This document shows, piece by piece, positions 3,402-32,761 of a stretch of 64,000 nt of DNA. Made by a program: the position numbers and the translations under genes. The first letter of the stretch is position 1. Each line of letters starts with the position of its first letter. The notes beneath the pieces are model-generated. The model was not told the origin of the DNA. It saw nothing but the letters and a program-made list of their open reading frames with translations, and made no database searches. The stretch is from Acidobacteriota bacterium (GTDB lineage Bacteria > Acidobacteriota > Blastocatellia > Pyrinomonadales > Pyrinomonadaceae), in the NCBI GenBank assembly GCA_025463135.1, contig JAOAPY010000016.1:124001-188000 (forward strand), in the 5' to 3' direction.

Positions 3402-3501
3402 TCTTCCTCCAGAGGGACACAATTGTCTTTGATTAGGATCGTGCAGTTTCCGGATCAGGGTCGGTCATATTACGAAGGATCTGCGAGTTGAGTTTCGATG
3501 G

Positions 3502-3604
3502 TCTGGGACCGCACGCATCCTGCGTGCTGGAGTTGGGGCGGTTTCTCCTTGCGATCCCGAAGGCCAGTGCCGCAGCCCCAGCACGCCAGAAGCGTGCGGT
3601 CCCA
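3502..3604. repeat. Palindromic intergenic repeat (GGGACCGCA family)
   Basis: TGGGACCGCACGC at 3504-3516 is answered by its reverse complement at 3592-3604. The left arm also holds a small hairpin (GCACGC, ATCCT, GCGTGC). A sister copy of the left arm lies at 61286-61311, with CACGC/GCGTG changed to CAGGC/GCCTG so that pairing is kept. It lies between the divergent tricorn gene and the aromatic operon promoter. Confidence 0.7.
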
Positions 3605-3623
3605 GGGAACCCGATATTTTTCC

Positions 3624-3653
3624 TTGACAGGTTTTTGTACGGCTGTCTATAGT
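3624..3653 (+). promoter_or_regulatory. Sigma-70 type promoter of the aromatic (phe) operon
   Basis: TTGACA at 3624-3629 and TATAGT at 3648-3653 are separated by 18 bases. Transcription would begin near 3660, about 25 bases before the leader peptide start codon. The perfect -35 box suits an operon controlled mainly by downstream attenuation rather than by an activator. Confidence 0.75.
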
Positions 3654-3684
3654 TGGCACTCGTTTCTGTTTTAGAGAGAAACAA

Positions 3685-3792
3685 ATGACGATTACCACGC
3701 ACACCCTCTTTTACTTCGCCTTTACGTACCGCTTCTTCTTTAACGGGGAGAGCGGACCGGCGAAATGTGGACGTGAAGTGCGAAAGACTTAA
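3685..3792 (+). CDS. Phe/Tyr-rich leader peptide (pheL-like) of an attenuator
   Basis: A 35-codon open frame, ATG to TAA, too short for ordinary gene calling. Codons 9-19 encode LFYFAFTYRFFF from its Leu onward: six Phe and two Tyr codons in eleven. A weak purine-rich stretch (AGAGAG) precedes the ATG. It sits between a consensus promoter and a strong terminator, ahead of chorismate mutase, prephenate dehydratase and DAHP synthase, exactly where a leader peptide sensing charged tRNA-Phe (and perhaps tRNA-Tyr) would be. The best known analogue is the enterobacterial pheL system; resemblance in sequence is limited to the Phe run. The peptide itself probably has no other function. A long opposite-strand frame across this region is taken as a shadow. 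Confidence 0.82.
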   Translation: MTITTHTLFYFAFTYRFFFNGESGPAKCGREVRKT

Positions 3793-3837
3793 GCAACCAG
3801 CACTAAATAGCTTCCAAACGAGCCAGCCGCGACTCCC
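3746..3837 (+). promoter_or_regulatory. Antiterminator pairing of the phe attenuator
   Basis: Just after the Phe/Tyr codon run, GGGAG (3746-3750), GCGG (3752-3755) and GGC (3759-3761) are complementary, in order, to CTCCC (3833-3837), CCGC (3827-3830) and GCC (3822-3824). Forming this pairing removes the 5' half of the terminator stem. A competing upstream hairpin, CCGCT (3729-3733) with AGCGG (3751-3755), overlaps the Phe codons, so a ribosome stalled there would free the antiterminator. The pairings are read by eye from sequence; their use is inferred from known attenuators. Confidence 0.6.
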
Positions 3838-3868
3838 AAAACGGGAATTAGTCGCGGCTGGTTTTTTT
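3823..3868 (+). terminator. Rho-independent terminator (attenuator) before chorismate mutase
   Basis: A perfect 12-bp stem, CCAGCCGCGACT at 3823-3834 with AGTCGCGGCTGG at 3850-3861, is followed by seven T residues (3862-3868). It ends only 20 bases before the chorismate mutase start, with no gene other than the leader peptide between it and the promoter, so it must act on the operon itself. Confidence 0.88.
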
Positions 3869-3887: not shown

Positions 3888-4190
3888 ATGAATATCCAAT
3901 ACTGGCGCTCGGAAATAGATGAAATCGACCGCACGCTTTTGCAGCTCTTGAACAGGCGGGCGCGCCTGGCCATGAAGGTTGGCGCCCTGAAGCGCGTGGC
4001 AGGCTTGCCATGTTGCGATCCGGAACGCGAGCGCACAGTGCTGTTGACGCTGCAACAAGCAAACAGCGGCCCGCTCGATCAGCGCGCCATTGGCAAACTC
4101 TTTCGCCGCATCATCAGCGAATCAAGACGTGTCGAAGCGGGGGCCATTCAAACAACCGACGGCGCCGAAATGCGCCAGGGCTTGCTGTGA
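3888..4190 (+). CDS. Chorismate mutase, AroQ (all-helical) type
   Basis: A 100-residue monofunctional chorismate mutase, converting chorismate to prephenate, the branch point to Phe and Tyr. The N-terminal helix RSEIDEIDRTLLQLLNRRA and the following MKVGALKR carry the conserved Arg/Lys pattern of the AroQ fold; length is normal for the isolated domain. A sequence AAGGA lies about ten bases before the ATG. The terminator of the attenuator ends 20 bases upstream, and the last codons overlap the prephenate dehydratase start (GTGA). In many bacteria this domain is fused to prephenate dehydratase as PheA; here the two are separate but translationally coupled. Confidence 0.92.
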   Translation: MNIQYWRSEIDEIDRTLLQLLNRRARLAMKVGALKRVAGLPCCDPERERTVLLTLQQANSGPLDQRAIGKLFRRIISESRRVEAGAIQTTDGAEMRQGLL

Positions 4191-4786
4191 TTAATTCAGC
4201 GCCAAGACCAAGAGTCGCCTTTCAGGGTGAGCCTGGTGCGTTCAGCGAAGATGCAGCCATCACGCTGCTCGGTCCCGAGATCGAGTCGGTGCCGCGCCCG
4301 ACCTTTGCTGCGCTCTTCAGTAGCGTTGCCGAAGGGTTGGCAGACTTTGCAGTCGCGCCGGTCGAAAACAGTCTGATCGGGGCAATTGAACCGGTGGTTG
4401 CTTTGCTGCGTGGGAGCGCACTGATTAACAGCGGCGAGATAGTCTGCCGCATTCAACAGCAGTTGATTGGCTGCCCGGGTGCCGTTTTGGAAGATATTGA
4501 AACAGTGGAATCCCATCCGGCGGCTCTGGCCCAATGCCGGCGCTTCTTTACCGAGTATCCGCGAATCGTTTCTATCGCGGTCGACGACACCGCCGGCAGC
4601 GTCGCGCGAATAATCAAAAGCGGCAATCGCACACGCGCGGCGCTGGCAGGACGGCGAGCCGCAAAACTCTACGGAGGCTTTATCATCAAGGAGAACCTGG
4701 AAGACGATCCGGAGAACTACACACGCTTCGTGCTCCTCAGGAGTGGAGAGATTGGTGACTCTTCAAACCGTCCGCCGTTTAGATAG
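4187..4786 (+). CDS. pheA: Prephenate dehydratase, catalytic domain only (no ACT domain)
   Basis: Converts prephenate to phenylpyruvate for phenylalanine synthesis. The catalytic domain begins at RVAFQGEPGAFSEDAA and reaches the conserved Thr-Arg-Phe motif (residues about 179-181), then ends 18 residues later. The C-terminal ACT domain that normally binds Phe for feedback inhibition is absent, so the protein is 199 residues instead of about 280. I start it at GTG 4187, which overlaps the chorismate mutase stop (GTGA); the longer in-frame extension is out-of-frame mutase sequence. The stop codon lies inside a 57-bp palindromic element, which may have cut the gene short. Loss of feedback inhibition would leave the upstream attenuator as the main Phe-sensing control. 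Confidence 0.88.
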   Translation: MINSAPRPRVAFQGEPGAFSEDAAITLLGPEIESVPRPTFAALFSSVAEGLADFAVAPVENSLIGAIEPVVALLRGSALINSGEIVCRIQQQLIGCPGAVLEDIETVESHPAALAQCRRFFTEYPRIVSIAVDDTAGSVARIIKSGNRTRAALAGRRAAKLYGGFIIKENLEDDPENYTRFVLLRSGEIGDSSNRPPFR

Positions 4787-4891: not shown

Positions 4892-5908
4892 ATGATCGTT
4901 AACATGTCAACAATCGCAACTAAAAAAGAGATCGATCACGTCATTGAAAGAATCAAGGAGTGCGGCTATCAAGCGCACGTCATCGAGGGCACCGAACGCA
5001 CTGTGATCGGCGCCGTCGGCAACGGCGGCCGCCGATCAGAAATTGAGGCCCTGCGCGCGGCGCCGGGCGTGCAGGAAGTAATTCAAATCACACATCCGTT
5101 CAAGCTCGTCAGCCTGCAACTACGACAACGCCGCACTGTAGTTGATGTCCGTGGAGTAAAGATCGGCGGCGGCGATTTAGTGGTGATTGCCGGCCCTTGC
5201 TCGGTCGAGTCGGGTGAGCAACTTAGAGAAACTGCCCTGGCTGTAAAGGCGGCCGGCGCGCAAATGTTGCGCGGCGGCGCTTACAAACCCCGCACCTCCC
5301 CGTACGATTTCCAGGGATTAGGGGTAGAGGCCTTGCGGCTTTTGCGTGAGGCCGGCGATGAAACCGGATTGCCAATCGTTACAGAAGTGATGAGCGAAGC
5401 CGACGTCGAAATCGTGGCCGAGTATGCCGACATGCTGCAAGTGGGCGCTCGGAACATGCAGAATTTCTCGCTTCTCAGAAAGCTGGCGAAGTTTGCGCGG
5501 CCGATTCTTTTGAAGCGTGGACCATCCGCCACCATCAAAGAATGGCTGCTGGCAGCCGAGTACCTCCTGGCCGGTGGCAATGCGAATGTGGTGCTTTGCG
5601 AACGCGGCATCAAGACTTTTGAAACAGCCACTCGGAACACTTTGGATTTGTCGGCCATAGCGTTGGCAAAAGAGTTATCACATTTGCCGGTGCTGGCAGA
5701 TCCATCGCACGGCACTGGCTTGCGCAGCCTGGTGCCACCGATGTCAAAAGCTGCGGCGGCGGCGGGCGCGGACGGGTTAATGATCGAGGTCCATCCCTGC
5801 CCTGAACGAGCGCTCTCGGATGGACCCCAATCTTTAGATCTGCCGGGCTTTGCCGCACTGATGCGGGAACTCGGCCAGCAGCCTTTGAAGGAAGTGCGCG
5901 CTGCGTAA
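4892..5908 (+). CDS. aroF: 3-deoxy-7-phosphoheptulonate synthase (DAHP synthase, type I beta)
   Basis: Catalyses the first step of the shikimate pathway, joining phosphoenolpyruvate and erythrose 4-phosphate. Residues 1-75 form the ferredoxin-like regulatory domain seen in the Thermotoga enzyme, where it mediates inhibition by Tyr and Phe. The TIM-barrel core follows, with GPCSVES at 101-107, KPRTSPY at 132-138, QIGARN-type text ([10 protein letters not shown]) and DPSHGTG near residue 270. Length (338) is that of the regulated form. AAGGA lies about ten bases before the ATG. The gap to prephenate dehydratase is 105 bases with no terminator obvious beyond the palindromic element, so it is probably cotranscribed and under the same attenuator. 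Confidence 0.95.
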
Positions 5909-6524: not shown

Positions 6525-8267
6525 TTACTGTTGAGCGCGACTGCGCAGAGCTGTCTTCGCGAGGTCGCGTGCATGTGGCAGAACGTCGACACCTTTGGCG
6601 ACTTGAGGATCATCAGTGGTCACAAACACGCGCTCGGCCATCACTCGACCATAGGCTGCAGTAACCAGATTGAAGCGTAATTGTGTAGTTATGAATTTTC
6701 GATTGCCGTCGAGTTGGGCGGCAGTTATTTTAAGCGCCGGCTGATTGGCCACGAATACTTTGAAGGCGTTGAAGGCCGCATCGGTGATCTGAAAGTCCAA
6801 CGGTTCCAGTTCATGTCGGAAATTAATCGGCCCTTGCACTTTGTAAGCGTCCAGGCCGCTTACGCGTTGATTTGCCAACTCGCGCGAGAAAGCAAAGATT
6901 GGGTTCAGCAAGCGCCGCTGAAAGAGCGAGACGGTGCGCGGCTCAACAACCTCATCTGGCGCAATGCCGCCCCCACCATAAACAGCGCGACCAGTGTCTG
7001 TGTGTTTCTCGGGTCCAATAGGCTTCATCGTCTGATCTTTTTGATCGAGACGAGTGGAGCCGCCATGTGTGTAGTAATCGTAAAATCCGCCATTCGAATA
7101 GTCCCGCTGAATCAGGCGTCCGGAAGGCGTGTAGTATTTCGCGGAAGTCAGCGTCAGTCCGGCGCCATGCTCCAGCGGGATGATGCTCTGGACCAGGCCC
7201 TTCCCGAAACTCGTCTTGCCCACAATCAAAGCGCGATCGTGATCCTGCATGGCGCCCGCAACGATTTCCGAGGCTGACGCAGTAGCCTCATTGATCAGAA
7301 TCACCAGCGGAGTAAGATCAGGTGAGCGGTTCTGCGACAGGAACGTGTTATCTCGAAAACCGTTTCGTCCTTTTTGACTCAGGATCACTTCGCTGTTGGG
7401 CAGAAAGGTCTCGGCCACCCGTATCGCCTGGTCCAAAAACCCGCCCGGATTATTCCGCAGATCCAACACCAGCGAAGTCATGCCCTTGCCGTGCAATTCT
7501 TCCAGCGCCCCTTGTAATTCTTCTGTAGTGGTGTAGTTGAAGCCCCGCGACATATCGACATAGCCGATGCCAGGGCCGATCATGTAGGCATCGGGTATGG
7601 ATGGCTGCGGAACGGCCTGACGTGTGATGGGAACAATTTCTACCTGGCCGTTAGCCGCGCGCTCGACCGTTACTTTCACCAGCGAGCCGCGCGGGCCGCG
7701 GATCTTGTCTCGTACTTCCAGAGAACTCTTGCCGGTCATCTTTACGCCGTCGACCGCGATGATTCGGTCACCAAAGCGCAGGCCTCCGCGGGCGGCGGGC
7801 GAATTCTCAAAAGTAGCAGTGATGAAGGTGTCGCTGTCTTCCACAACAACATAACTCTGGATTGAGGCGCCGATGCCGAAATACTCTGAACGCTGGTCCG
7901 TCTTCAATTCGTCGAATTCTTCCTTATCAAAATAGTTTGAATGCGGATCAAGCGAGCGCAGCATCCCGGTGATAGACGATTTGAACACTGCGTTGTAATC
8001 CAGCTTGCTGCCCTCGACGTAGTTCTCCTCGACGAGTTTCAGTGCTTCCTGAAAATCTTCTTCGATTGGCGAGACGCCACGAACACGGCTACGCCGCCCG
8101 GTAGGACTTGCTGCAGATGGCTTTCCTGACGCAGTCGTAGTTGTGGATGATCCCTGCGGTTTCTGCTGCGCGCTGACGCCACTGTTGACCAGGCTCGGCA
8201 TAACGAGCGACAACACAAATAGCGTGACCAATAATTTTGATAATAAATGCGAGAATTTCTTTTTCAC
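6525..8267 (-). CDS. C-terminal processing protease, S41A (CtpA/Prc family)
   Basis: A 580-residue exported serine protease that cleaves envelope proteins near their C-termini. A signal peptide (KKKFSHLLSKLL and a hydrophobic stretch to VSAQQ) is followed by a Ser/Thr-rich segment, a PDZ domain (about residues 125-215, with SEYFGIGASI and FENSPAARGGLRFGDRI), and the S41 core with DLRNNPGGFLDQA. The catalytic pair is Ser331 in ATASASEIVAG and Lys356 in GKTSFGKGLVQ, with the 25-residue spacing of the family. I prefer the GTG at 8267 (preceded by AGGGG) over the upstream GTG because the signal peptide then starts with Lys residues. A C-terminal extension of about 200 residues is not assigned. 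Confidence 0.92.
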   Translation of the reverse strand: MKKKFSHLLSKLLVTLFVLSLVMPSLVNSGVSAQQKPQGSSTTTTASGKPSAASPTGRRSRVRGVSPIEEDFQEALKLVEENYVEGSKLDYNAVFKSSITGMLRSLDPHSNYFDKEEFDELKTDQRSEYFGIGASIQSYVVVEDSDTFITATFENSPAARGGLRFGDRIIAVDGVKMTGKSSLEVRDKIRGPRGSLVKVTVERAANGQVEIVPITRQAVPQPSIPDAYMIGPGIGYVDMSRGFNYTTTEELQGALEELHGKGMTSLVLDLRNNPGGFLDQAIRVAETFLPNSEVILSQKGRNGFRDNTFLSQNRSPDLTPLVILINEATASASEIVAGAMQDHDRALIVGKTSFGKGLVQSIIPLEHGAGLTLTSAKYYTPSGRLIQRDYSNGGFYDYYTHGGSTRLDQKDQTMKPIGPEKHTDTGRAVYGGGGIAPDEVVEPRTVSLFQRRLLNPIFAFSRELANQRVSGLDAYKVQGPINFRHELEPLDFQITDAAFNAFKVFVANQPALKITAAQLDGNRKFITTQLRFNLVTAAYGRVMAERVFVTTDDPQVAKGVDVLPHARDLAKTALRSRAQQ

Positions 8268-8411
8268 CGAAGCAAACCCCTGATAAGTTTCCCAAAGCAC
8301 CACGCGAACGTTCGCGGAATCGAAATTAATCACCCGCCACGCAGCAAAAGCAATACTACACGGATGCCCGAGAACGGAGCAAGGTTATCGGCCAAACGGG
8401 TAGCCAAACGG

Positions 8412-30070: not shown

Positions 30071-32761
30071 TCATCCGAGCGCCTCCATCATCTCTTCCAA
30101 TGCCGCGGTCCGTTGCTTTATATCCGCCTGGCGAGCGCGTAGTTCGTCAACCTTCTCCACCGGCGCTCGCTCGACAAACTGCGGATTCGCAAGTTGCCCT
30201 TCCAACTTCGCTGCCTCGACCCTCAACTTGTCGAGTTCTTTTCGCAGACGCTGTCGCTCCTGCTCAAAATCAATCAAGCCCTCGAGCGGCACGGCGAGCT
30301 CCGCGCCACCCCCAAGCGCGGCACGGGCTGATGCTCGGGACGCATTGAGTTGAGCTTCTACTGAAACGCTCGCGGCACGCGCCAGGCGCGCGATCTGATC
30401 TGCGCTCGCTCTAAATACCTTGCGCAGATTTTCATCAGCAACACCAATCAGGAGCGGCACGCGCTCGCCTGGCTTGATGTTCATCTCCGAGCGAATGTTG
30501 CGCACACGCGAGATCAAATCGATTACTGCCTGCATTTCCGACTCTACCGCTTCATCGATTAACTCAGCGCGGCCTTCAGGATAACCAGTCAACATTACGC
30601 TCGGCGCGGCGCCTTTGTATGCGTGGTGCAGCAGGTCGCCACTAACACCGGGAAGTTGCTGCCACAATTCCTCCGTAATGTAAGGCATGAAAGGATGCAG
30701 CAGCCGCAACGACTGCTCTAACACGCTCACCAGGCGCGAGCGGGCCGAGATGCGTTCCGGAGTCGCCTCTTCCGCCGTTATGCCCGCCTTTGCCAACTCG
30801 ATGTACCAATCGCAGAAGTCGTCCCAGAAGAAGTGATAGAGCGTTTGCACGGCCTCATGAAACTGGTAGCCGGCCAACGCCGCGCGGACGTCGCGTGCGG
30901 TCCTATGCAAACGCGAGATAATCCAGCGATCGTGCAGCGCAAGATCGCCGGCGTCTGCACCTATTGATTCCGGATCAACCCTCGCGCCCTCGGAATTCAT
31001 CAGACAGAACCGCGTAGCGTTCCAAATCTTATTGGCGAAATTTCGATACGATTCAACCTGCTTTTCATTCCACCGAGTGTCCGTGGTGCCTACAGACGCC
31101 AGCGTCAAACGCGTGGCGTCCACACCATATTTATCAAACACCTCGAGCGGATCGACACCATTGCCTTTGGTCTTGGACATACGCTGGCCATGCTTATCCA
31201 GGATTGTGCCCGTGACGAAGACGTCGTCGAAGGGACGCTCATCGACAAACTTCATACCCATCATGACCATGCGCGACACCCAGAGAAAAATGATGTCGCG
31301 CGCGGTTACCAGCACCGACGTGGGATAAAAGTTTCTGAGATCTTCCGTTTCGTTGGGCCAGCCCAGAGTGGAAAAGGGCCAGAGACCGGAAGAAAACCAC
31401 GTGTCCAAAACATCCGGATCCTGGGTCAATTCCACGGTGCCTGCTTTGGCACGAGCCTCTTCTTCGGTGCGCGCCACTATCACATCGCCCGTCGGCGTAT
31501 ACCACGCGGGGATTTGATGCCCCCACCACAACTGGCGCGAGATGGTCCAATCACGGAGGTTCTCGAGCCAGTCGGTGTAGACCTTCCGGTAAGGAACTTC
31601 GGGAAAGAAGCGCGGCTTCTCTGCTCGCGACATGAGATCAAGAGCGAGGTCGCGCAGCTTGTCCATGCGACAAAACCACTGGGTTGAAATCAGCGGTTCA
31701 AGGACGGTCTTACAGCGCTCACACTTCGAGATTGAAAATTCATAGTCCACCACCTTTTCGAGCAGGCCCAGCTCGGCGAACTTCTCAATGACTCTTTCAC
31801 GCGCTTTGTAGCGATCGAGGCCCGCGAATTCCACGCCGGCGTCCGCGGTCATCTTCGCGTGCTGATCTATAACGACTACCTGTGCCAGCTGGTGTCGAAC
31901 TCCCATATCGTAGTCATTCGGATCGTGCGCCGGGGTAATTTTTACGGCGCCGGTTCCGAATTCCTGCTCGACGTACTCGTCGGCAATGACCGGTATCTCG
32001 CGGTCCGTCAAAGGCAAAAGCAAAGTGGCGCCCACCAAATCGCGATAGCGCTCATCATCAGGGTTCACGGCTACCGCGGTATCCCCGAGCATCGTTTCCG
32101 GTCGCGTGGTCGCTACAGTGACTTTGCGATTACTGTTCTGCACCGGATATTGAAGATAGTAAAGCTTGCCCGCTTGTGGTTCCTTCAGGACTTCGAGATC
32201 AGACAGCACTGTCTGGTCATTAGGACACCAATTCACGATGCGATTGCCGCGATAGATCAGGCCTTCGTCGTAGAGACGAACAAAAGCCTCACGCACGGCG
32301 CGCGACAGATCGTCGGCCATGGTGAATTTCTCGCGCGACCAATCGACCGACACTCCCTCGCGGCGCATTTGCTTCGTAATCTGGCCGCCGGATTCAGCCT
32401 TCCATTTCCAGACCCGCTCTACAAACTTTTCGCGCCCCAAATCGTGACGGCTCAATCCCTCTTTCTTGAGTTCGCGCGTGACCATCAACTGCGTTGAGAT
32501 TCCGGCGTGGTCCATGCCAGGAAGCCAGAGCGTGCGATAGCCACACATTCTTTTGTATCTCGTCAACACGTCCATCATCGTGTGCTGGAGCGCGTGGCCC
32601 ATGTGCAGTGAGCCGGTAACATTCGGCGGCGGAATGACTATCGTGAATGTCGGCGCGTTTTCATCCTTATTAATTTCAGGAGCAAAAAAACCCTGCTGCT
32701 CCCAGCGCGCGTAATGATGTTCTTCGGCCTGTTTGGGATCGTATGTTTTCGGGATGTCCAT
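30071..32761 (-). CDS. valS: Valyl-tRNA synthetase
   Basis: Class I aminoacyl-tRNA synthetase charging tRNA-Val. The 896-residue protein has the HIGH-type motif in NVTGSLHMGHALQHT near residue 50, the KMSKS-type motif in GQRMSKTKGNGVDPLEV near 540, the editing domain between them (TTRPETMLGDTAVAVNP), an anticodon-binding domain (DDFCDWYIELAK), and a C-terminal coiled coil (about 830-896) as in standard ValRS. Complete and of normal length. Confidence 0.97.
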   Translation of the reverse strand: MDIPKTYDPKQAEEHHYARWEQQGFFAPEINKDENAPTFTIVIPPPNVTGSLHMGHALQHTMMDVLTRYKRMCGYRTLWLPGMDHAGISTQLMVTRELKKEGLSRHDLGREKFVERVWKWKAESGGQITKQMRREGVSVDWSREKFTMADDLSRAVREAFVRLYDEGLIYRGNRIVNWCPNDQTVLSDLEVLKEPQAGKLYYLQYPVQNSNRKVTVATTRPETMLGDTAVAVNPDDERYRDLVGATLLLPLTDREIPVIADEYVEQEFGTGAVKITPAHDPNDYDMGVRHQLAQVVVIDQHAKMTADAGVEFAGLDRYKARERVIEKFAELGLLEKVVDYEFSISKCERCKTVLEPLISTQWFCRMDKLRDLALDLMSRAEKPRFFPEVPYRKVYTDWLENLRDWTISRQLWWGHQIPAWYTPTGDVIVARTEEEARAKAGTVELTQDPDVLDTWFSSGLWPFSTLGWPNETEDLRNFYPTSVLVTARDIIFLWVSRMVMMGMKFVDERPFDDVFVTGTILDKHGQRMSKTKGNGVDPLEVFDKYGVDATRLTLASVGTTDTRWNEKQVESYRNFANKIWNATRFCLMNSEGARVDPESIGADAGDLALHDRWIISRLHRTARDVRAALAGYQFHEAVQTLYHFFWDDFCDWYIELAKAGITAEEATPERISARSRLVSVLEQSLRLLHPFMPYITEELWQQLPGVSGDLLHHAYKGAAPSVMLTGYPEGRAELIDEAVESEMQAVIDLISRVRNIRSEMNIKPGERVPLLIGVADENLRKVFRASADQIARLARAASVSVEAQLNASRASARAALGGGAELAVPLEGLIDFEQERQRLRKELDKLRVEAAKLEGQLANPQFVERAPVEKVDELRARQADIKQRTAALEEMMEALG

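Follow-up and report, generated by a model that had tools for sequence, protein, structure and literature searches.

A predicted Phe/Tyr leader-peptide attenuator of an aromatic amino acid operon in Acidobacteriota and its probable relatives with other codon specificities

The best point of reference for the locus described here is the pheL–pheA attenuator of enterobacteria (the Phe leader of Rfam), in which a Phe-rich leader peptide is combined with a terminator and an alternative antiterminator ahead of a chorismate mutase/prephenate dehydratase gene. In E. coli pheL, the stop codon of the leader ORF lies inside the 1:2 hairpin region, and the terminating ribosome masks region 2. The classical trp, his, leu and ilv leaders are, to our knowledge, unrelated across amino acids. 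T-boxes bind tRNA directly, without translation, and comprise one RNA scaffold in which the amino acid is re-specified by codon identity. In the trp and his attenuators, stalling at control codons frees the antiterminator (PMC1183508). Among the Actinobacteria, the cys operon of Mycobacterium features Cys-codon leader peptides without a conserved terminator (PMC1262725). Attenuators have also been predicted in Acidobacteria, almost none of them with an associated function (PMC2965389). We found no description of a leader-peptide attenuator from Acidobacteria in the openly accessible literature, in agreement with a preliminary description of this DNA that knew of no such system in a bacterium of this kind.

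The window, i.e., the whole 64 kb stretch of DNA analyzed here, comes from a genome that is placed with the Pyrinomonadaceae (Acidobacteriota). The preliminary description had read from it a consensus promoter, a 35-codon frame with six Phe and two Tyr codons in eleven, a 12-bp perfect stem with seven T and an alternative 12-bp pairing, all lying 5' of genes for chorismate mutase, prephenate dehydratase and DAHP synthase. Each of these elements was recovered, with Pfam matches bearing out the three genes (Table 1). The alternative, antiterminator pairing (3746–3761 with 3822–3837) consists of three short helices of 5, 4 and 3 bp interrupted by two small internal loops. A third pairing, the 1:2 hairpin, holds the sensor codons. 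The leader as a whole folds with z = −4.58 (0/200 shuffles). The terminator was unlisted by the pattern scan, its loop being above the limit of the scan, and is plain from the sequence. The leader ORF is the sole ORF on either strand of the window with eight, or even seven, Phe and Tyr codons per 11, and no ORF with eight appeared in 60 dinucleotide shuffles. The GTGC..GCAC arms of the small hairpin around its stop codon are kept in the nearest relatives; this hairpin would nest within the antiterminator loop, a role predicted from the fold.

Table 1. Leader elements and downstream genes, in window coordinates.
Feature	Position	Strand	Basis
Sigma-70-type promoter, TTGACA (3624-3629), 18-nt spacer, TATAGT (3648-3653)	3624-3653	+	11/12 consensus bases
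Putative weak Shine-Dalgarno-like AGAGAGA, 5' of the leader ATG	3673-3679	+	Sequence
Leader peptide ORF MTITTHTLFYFAFTYRFFFNGESGPAKCGREVRKT, 35 codons; ATG at 3685, stop TAA at 3790-3792	3685-3792	+	Sequence; kept in relatives
Sensor codons 9-19, F Y F A F T Y R F F F (6 Phe, 2 Tyr)	3709-3741	+	
Region 1, strand 1 of the 1:2 hairpin, overlapping the sensor codons	3715-3740	+	Folding
Region 2, partner of region 1 (default) or region 3 (antiterminator)	3745-3764	+	Codons 21-27 of the ORF
Small hairpin AGUGC/GCACU around the stop codon (arms 3777-3781 and 3800-3804)	3777-3804	+	MFE fold
Region 3, terminator 5' arm and antiterminator 3' partner	3822-3837	+	
Intrinsic terminator, CCAGCCGCGACT (3823-3834) / AGTCGCGGCTGG (3850-3861), 12 bp, then T7 (3862-3868)	3823-3868	+	Covariation in 18 loci
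Chorismate mutase CM_2 (PF01817)	3888-4190	+	E 2.1e-24
Prephenate dehydratase, catalytic domain (PF00800)	4187-4786	+	E 1.6e-49
DAHP synthase with ferredoxin-like domain (PF00793, PF18152)	4892-5908	+	E 6.8e-82

Most leaders of the relatives are preceded by similar TTGACA...TATAGT boxes. In three g23 relatives (L006, L009 and L010), the leader ATG lies only ~10 nt past the −10 box, suggesting that the leader mRNA may be nearly leaderless, with a Shine–Dalgarno-free start. Immediately 5' of the promoter of the window leader is a 100-nt imperfect palindrome (3499–3609; DNA folding z −6.9), whose end motif TGGGACCGCACGC is found again with one mismatch at 30893 and 61288 of the window; it is possibly a mobile repeat.

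The locus thus resembles pheL–pheA in its Phe-rich peptide, its mutually alternative terminator and antiterminator, and its place before genes for the same two enzymatic activities, but it differs in several respects. The Rfam Phe leader covariance model does not match it, and there is no sequence kinship. More generally, no Rfam family matches the window at the gathering score, the only hit to its leader at E ≤ 10 is S4-Bacteroidia (E 0.47) on the opposite strand, and seven other leader loci are likewise without a match. Further, the present leader has 35 codons with Phe and Tyr mixed; its ORF spans both strands of the 1:2 hairpin, with a stop codon that begins 26 nt past region 2; and the operon has separate chorismate mutase and prephenate dehydratase genes, the latter without a matched ACT domain, along with DAHP synthase. 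Thus, the analogy drawn in the preliminary description holds for the working principle, and not for membership in the Rfam Phe family or the stop-in-hairpin layout: the mechanism is classical, like that of enterobacterial pheL, without the leader being a member. It shares with the trp/his/leu/ilv attenuators (Proteobacteria, Actinobacteria and hisS of Firmicutes) the placement of control codons where stalling frees the antiterminator.

We then examined this placement by folding the RNA available before the synthesis of region 4 with the ribosome placed at each codon—a purely thermodynamic scan, blind to kinetics, to pausing of RNA polymerase and to the actual ribosome footprint. Without a ribosome, the 1:2 hairpin forms and the antiterminator probability is ~0; it is about 0.05 at most with the A-site at codons 2–6 and 0.27 at codon 7. 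At codons 8–17, both antiterminator helices reach 0.96–1.0; at codons 18–19, the inner helix remains at 0.99–1.0 with the outer one masked; and at codon 20 and beyond, the probability is 0. Thus, the permissive A-site codons (8–19) coincide with the Phe/Tyr run (9–19). When the peptides were circularly shifted, as many sensor codons fell into the permissive part in 0/5000 shifts each for 17 Phe/Tyr, 15 Cys and 7 Tyr leaders (see below), and in 7/5000 for 12 leaders from other classes. For the window leader, the thermodynamic scan has the antiterminator freed by stalling at the sensor codons and not elsewhere, whereas many relatives also tolerate stalling at codons before the run; the edge that is sharp in general is the 3' one.

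In the mechanism we propose, transcription would start near 3660, and the leader would be translated while being made. With ample Phe and Tyr, the ribosome would clear codons 9–19 and cover region 2, after which the 1:2 hairpin would re-form behind it; region 3 would be left for region 4, and RNA polymerase would halt in the T run of the resulting terminator. When Phe or Tyr is short, the ribosome would stall on codons 9–19 and mask region 1, and region 2 would pair with region 3, blocking the terminator and allowing the operon to be read. Without translation, the 1:2 hairpin and then the terminator would form. The translation, stalling, termination and read-through invoked here are what the in silico fold predicts for the cell, and the fold scan favors the earlier proposal that stalling at Phe or Tyr codons would turn this operon on. 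Taking together all the evidence presented here, which is computational throughout, we assign a probability of roughly 0.93 to the leader being a ribosome-mediated transcription attenuator of the chorismate mutase–prephenate dehydratase–DAHP synthase operon.

With the chorismate mutase as query, a search across the order (119 genomes) uncovered the same leader 5' of a stand-alone chorismate mutase at 18 loci that were aligned, with a divergent Phe/Tyr-rich leader at two additional loci in g5 (L020, L025); in the g22 genera with a fused chorismate mutase, the leader is mostly absent. A search of viral contigs returned one weak chorismate mutase relative, which was uninformative. The preliminary description had expected relatives to keep the codon run in an unbroken frame and to show paired changes in both hairpins, and the alignment agrees with it. 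The Phe/Tyr core is kept in the 18 aligned loci (peptide cores FYYFAFTYRF) as well as the two divergent ones. Pairwise differences at the core codons of the 18 loci comprise 225 synonymous changes, 233 Phe↔Tyr exchanges and 209 others; the class {Phe, Tyr} is kept and the individual member is not, with the TTC codon of FAF invariant throughout. Indels that alter the frame length occur only 3' of the sensor codons, and one locus (L015) is devoid of a standard start codon (ATG/GTG/TTG) at the expected place. Given the shifts in length and register past the core, conservation at the protein level is confined to the sensor part.

The paired changes were observed in the terminator stem, where 98.3% of the cells across the 18 loci are paired and four pairs show double changes. 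Double changes occupy 11 cells versus 3.0 in shuffles (0/500), and slid controls are only 19–51% paired. In L014 and L017, region 3 has changed from GCCAGCCGC to GCCGACCGC; region 4 follows (GCGGTCGGC), and region 2 is GTGGT/GCGGT. In the second hairpin, too, regions 2 and 3 from one locus fit each other better than regions combined from different loci, with means of −24.6 kcal/mol for native 2:3 duplexes versus −22.8 kcal/mol for swapped ones (2/20000 permutations), a result that, with covariation of this pairing assessed by swapping only, we count as support and not proof because kinship among the sequences can inflate swap tests. The corresponding means for the 3:4 duplexes, under the same proviso, are −29.1 and −25.6 kcal/mol (0/20000 permutations). 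The sequence, the swap test and the fold scans together support an alternative antiterminator pairing that would exclude the terminator, as is expected of ribosome-mediated attenuators.

The gene content of the source genome bears on why both Phe and Tyr might be sensed. We found no match to prephenate dehydrogenase (PF02153) in this genome, which is 100% complete, while 13/14 control genomes did match; phenylalanine 4-hydroxylase (PF00351) is present, as it is in 97/119 genomes of the order. Hence, Tyr is probably made from Phe, with the operon as the probable source of both, which would explain mixed Phe/Tyr sensing. In those relatives that do possess TyrA (e.g., G001, G038, G101, G102, G106 and G107), it is encoded on the strand of the chorismate mutase gene, a short distance 3' of it. 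Dual sensing of charged tRNA-Phe and tRNA-Tyr, as already suspected from the mixed codons, is therefore quite likely, given this pathway logic and the frequent Phe↔Tyr exchange. The prephenate dehydratase gene overlaps that of chorismate mutase by 4 bases. Prephenate dehydratases usually possess an ACT domain; the Pfam search detected none in the product of 4187–4786, and RNA control may thus stand in for part of the usual feedback on this enzyme. The leader offers a possible route for controlling Phe and Tyr supply in bacteria whose prephenate dehydratase is without its customary ACT domain and whose Tyr apparently derives from Phe.

Classical attenuation is ranked above the readings based on riboswitches, nascent-chain arrest and Phe-only sensing. 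A terminator and an alternative fold by themselves suit many riboregulators, and one could envisage a plain terminator or another riboswitch (T-box or metabolite riboswitch) accompanied by a chance ORF. This is barely credible given the lack of any Rfam match at the gathering score in the window or of a relevant one at E ≤ 10 in the leader, and given that the Phe/Tyr run, absent from the shuffles, is conserved. Moreover, the gene adjoining the leader upstream is on the opposite strand, and so the hairpin is not its terminator. TnaC exemplifies peptide-mediated ribosome arrest in response to Trp, and the strong retention of YFAFTYR in the family, and in part in another family (FTYRYW), could reflect a comparable peptide that itself arrests the ribosome on free Phe or Tyr without slow decoding. 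Yet most core positions accept Phe and Tyr interchangeably, the motif is entirely missing from those related leaders that have Cys or Tyr runs, the residues match the target pathway, and arrest driven by surplus would mean more expression at times of plentiful product; we hence regard it as highly improbable. That only Phe is sensed, with the Tyr codons as passengers, accords with the six Phe versus two Tyr codons of the window leader and the invariant TTC before Ala. It is nevertheless unlikely, as Phe↔Tyr exchange is as frequent as synonymous change, some relatives are mostly Tyr (L017, YYYFAYTYRYSY), and both the presumed derivation of Tyr from Phe in the source genome and the position of TyrA in several relatives point to Tyr as a further product of the pathway.

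Classical attenuation by related leaders appears to extend beyond this operon. A covariance model built from the 18 Phe/Tyr leaders only (R1) had a second match in the source genome (C6:24334-24488, E 1.1e-6; locus L065, C6:24336-24498, minus strand), a Cys-codon leader (MNYAYHCCCCTYCACCPGRDRESF..., with CCCCTYCACC) and terminator before a CysM-type cysteine synthase (best match TIGR01138, below cut-off), a JAB protein and a ThiF/rhodanese/ThiS protein. Within the class, R1 detected such Cys leaders in genera g23, g25 and g29, and, in g22/g28, others that precede a NIR_SIR gene accompanied by siroheme genes (G111: 75 bits, E 8e-15). In L071 and L072 (g22), a Cys-type leader MHFLNSMCCCACMDCMFLSGG precedes genes for a DUF2061 protein, a NIR_SIR reductase and CbiX. 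Like the actinobacterial Cys leaders, that of L065 has Cys-codon runs before cysteine genes; unlike them, the acidobacterial versions possess a terminator and antiterminator and look akin to the Phe/Tyr leader.

R1 also recovered Tyr leaders (NSYRYYYYYGPLS) before phenylalanine hydroxylase. The source genome has one as well, its third leader (L116, G000:C37, about 7950-8300, minus strand), where MINRRHSYYYYYGPLSTW and a terminator precede phenylalanine 4-hydroxylase. This is a putative Tyr attenuator on the Tyr-making enzyme, recurring in many relatives: a Tyr-run ORF is found at 15/20 further hydroxylase genes of the same subclade versus 2/600 random pieces, and at none of the 30 best-scoring phenylalanine hydroxylases, mostly of another subclade (g22 and others). 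A Tyr-rich leader MKMNRNSYRGFYYYVSS (L078), from a different family of the class (G128), lies before a CADD-like haem-oxygenase-fold protein (TIGR04305/PF14518). In f16, another family of the phylum, R1 and R2 detected leaders before chorismate mutase, DAHP synthase, shikimate kinase (peptide FxxCFTYRYWW) and trpB (FFSFTFRYWY), and in two f23 genomes prephenate dehydratase is preceded by MFVDDRSRFYFYFYFPPS, these targets from other classes being assigned by Pfam/NCBIfam. R2 matches occur in 48/396 genomes of the phylum. The R1 matches L066 (within a coding region), L108, L113 and L114 and the R2 match L163 were discarded as false or terminator-only. No Trp or His leader was found upstream of the trpE (PF04715) and hisG (PF01634) of the source genome; thus, the device is not used by every amino-acid operon of this genome.

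In every leader class, the sensor codons match the pathway: the present operon has Phe/Tyr codons, phenylalanine hydroxylase has Tyr codons, trpB and shikimate kinase have Trp codons together with Phe/Tyr, and the cysteine synthase and sulfite/nitrite reductase-type genes have Cys codons. The covariance models match reciprocally between the classes: R1 finds the Cys leaders (E 1e-6 to 8e-15) and a hydroxylase leader (1.6e-10), and the window leader is in turn detected (9.7e-11) by R3, which derives from Cys leaders only. These matches argue against the Cys, Tyr and Trp leaders being convergent look-alikes, although a CCGC/GCGG-type terminator core in most classes aids them. When the terminator is left out, g29-type Cys leaders (YYYYYWCACTFAF, an intermediate form) reach 10–33 bits with the Phe/Tyr profile and most f16 (other-class) leaders 7–43 bits, versus ≤3.4 for shuffles; fully Cys-type leaders (g23, source genome) were not clearly detected by this profile, which favors convergence. 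Kinship of all the classes is thus likely via intermediates, though not fully proven, and convergence appears rather doubtful. We therefore think it probable that these leaders form one family with changed specificity in Acidobacteriota. With somewhat less assurance, we lean toward a single ancestral attenuator that spread through the phylum and was re-specified through changes at position two of codons that start with U—Phe UUY, Tyr UAY and Cys UGY, plus Trp UGG—with every copy suited to its own pathway.

Across all the leader classes, each sensed codon begins with U (UUY, UAY, UGY, UGG); no leaders of the same scaffold for other amino acids were seen with R1–R3, models that would miss such leaders. 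The tRNAs reading these codons commonly carry (ms2)i6A37, and ms2i6A formation is an iron–sulfur-dependent step. As a candidate link, the restriction to UNN codons may tie these operons to the A37 modification (ms2i6A) of tRNAs.

Given the lack of an Rfam match and of a description from Acidobacteria in the openly accessible literature, what appears to be new is the lineage, together with the sensing of both Phe and Tyr and the existence of a re-specified family. The predicted attenuators provide functional assignments in a dominant soil phylum where almost none existed (PMC2965389). Unlike the classical attenuators, the acidobacterial scaffold appears to be re-used for Phe/Tyr, Tyr, Trp and Cys, and such a natural series of one scaffold with different amino acids would make the evolution of attenuator specificity traceable and testable. 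In having one scaffold re-specified for different amino acids it is like the T-box, but in the acidobacterial leaders, which have no match to the T-box covariance model of Rfam, the ribosome would be the sensor. If indeed derived from one ancestral, re-specified leader, this family would be a ribosome-based counterpart of the T-box.
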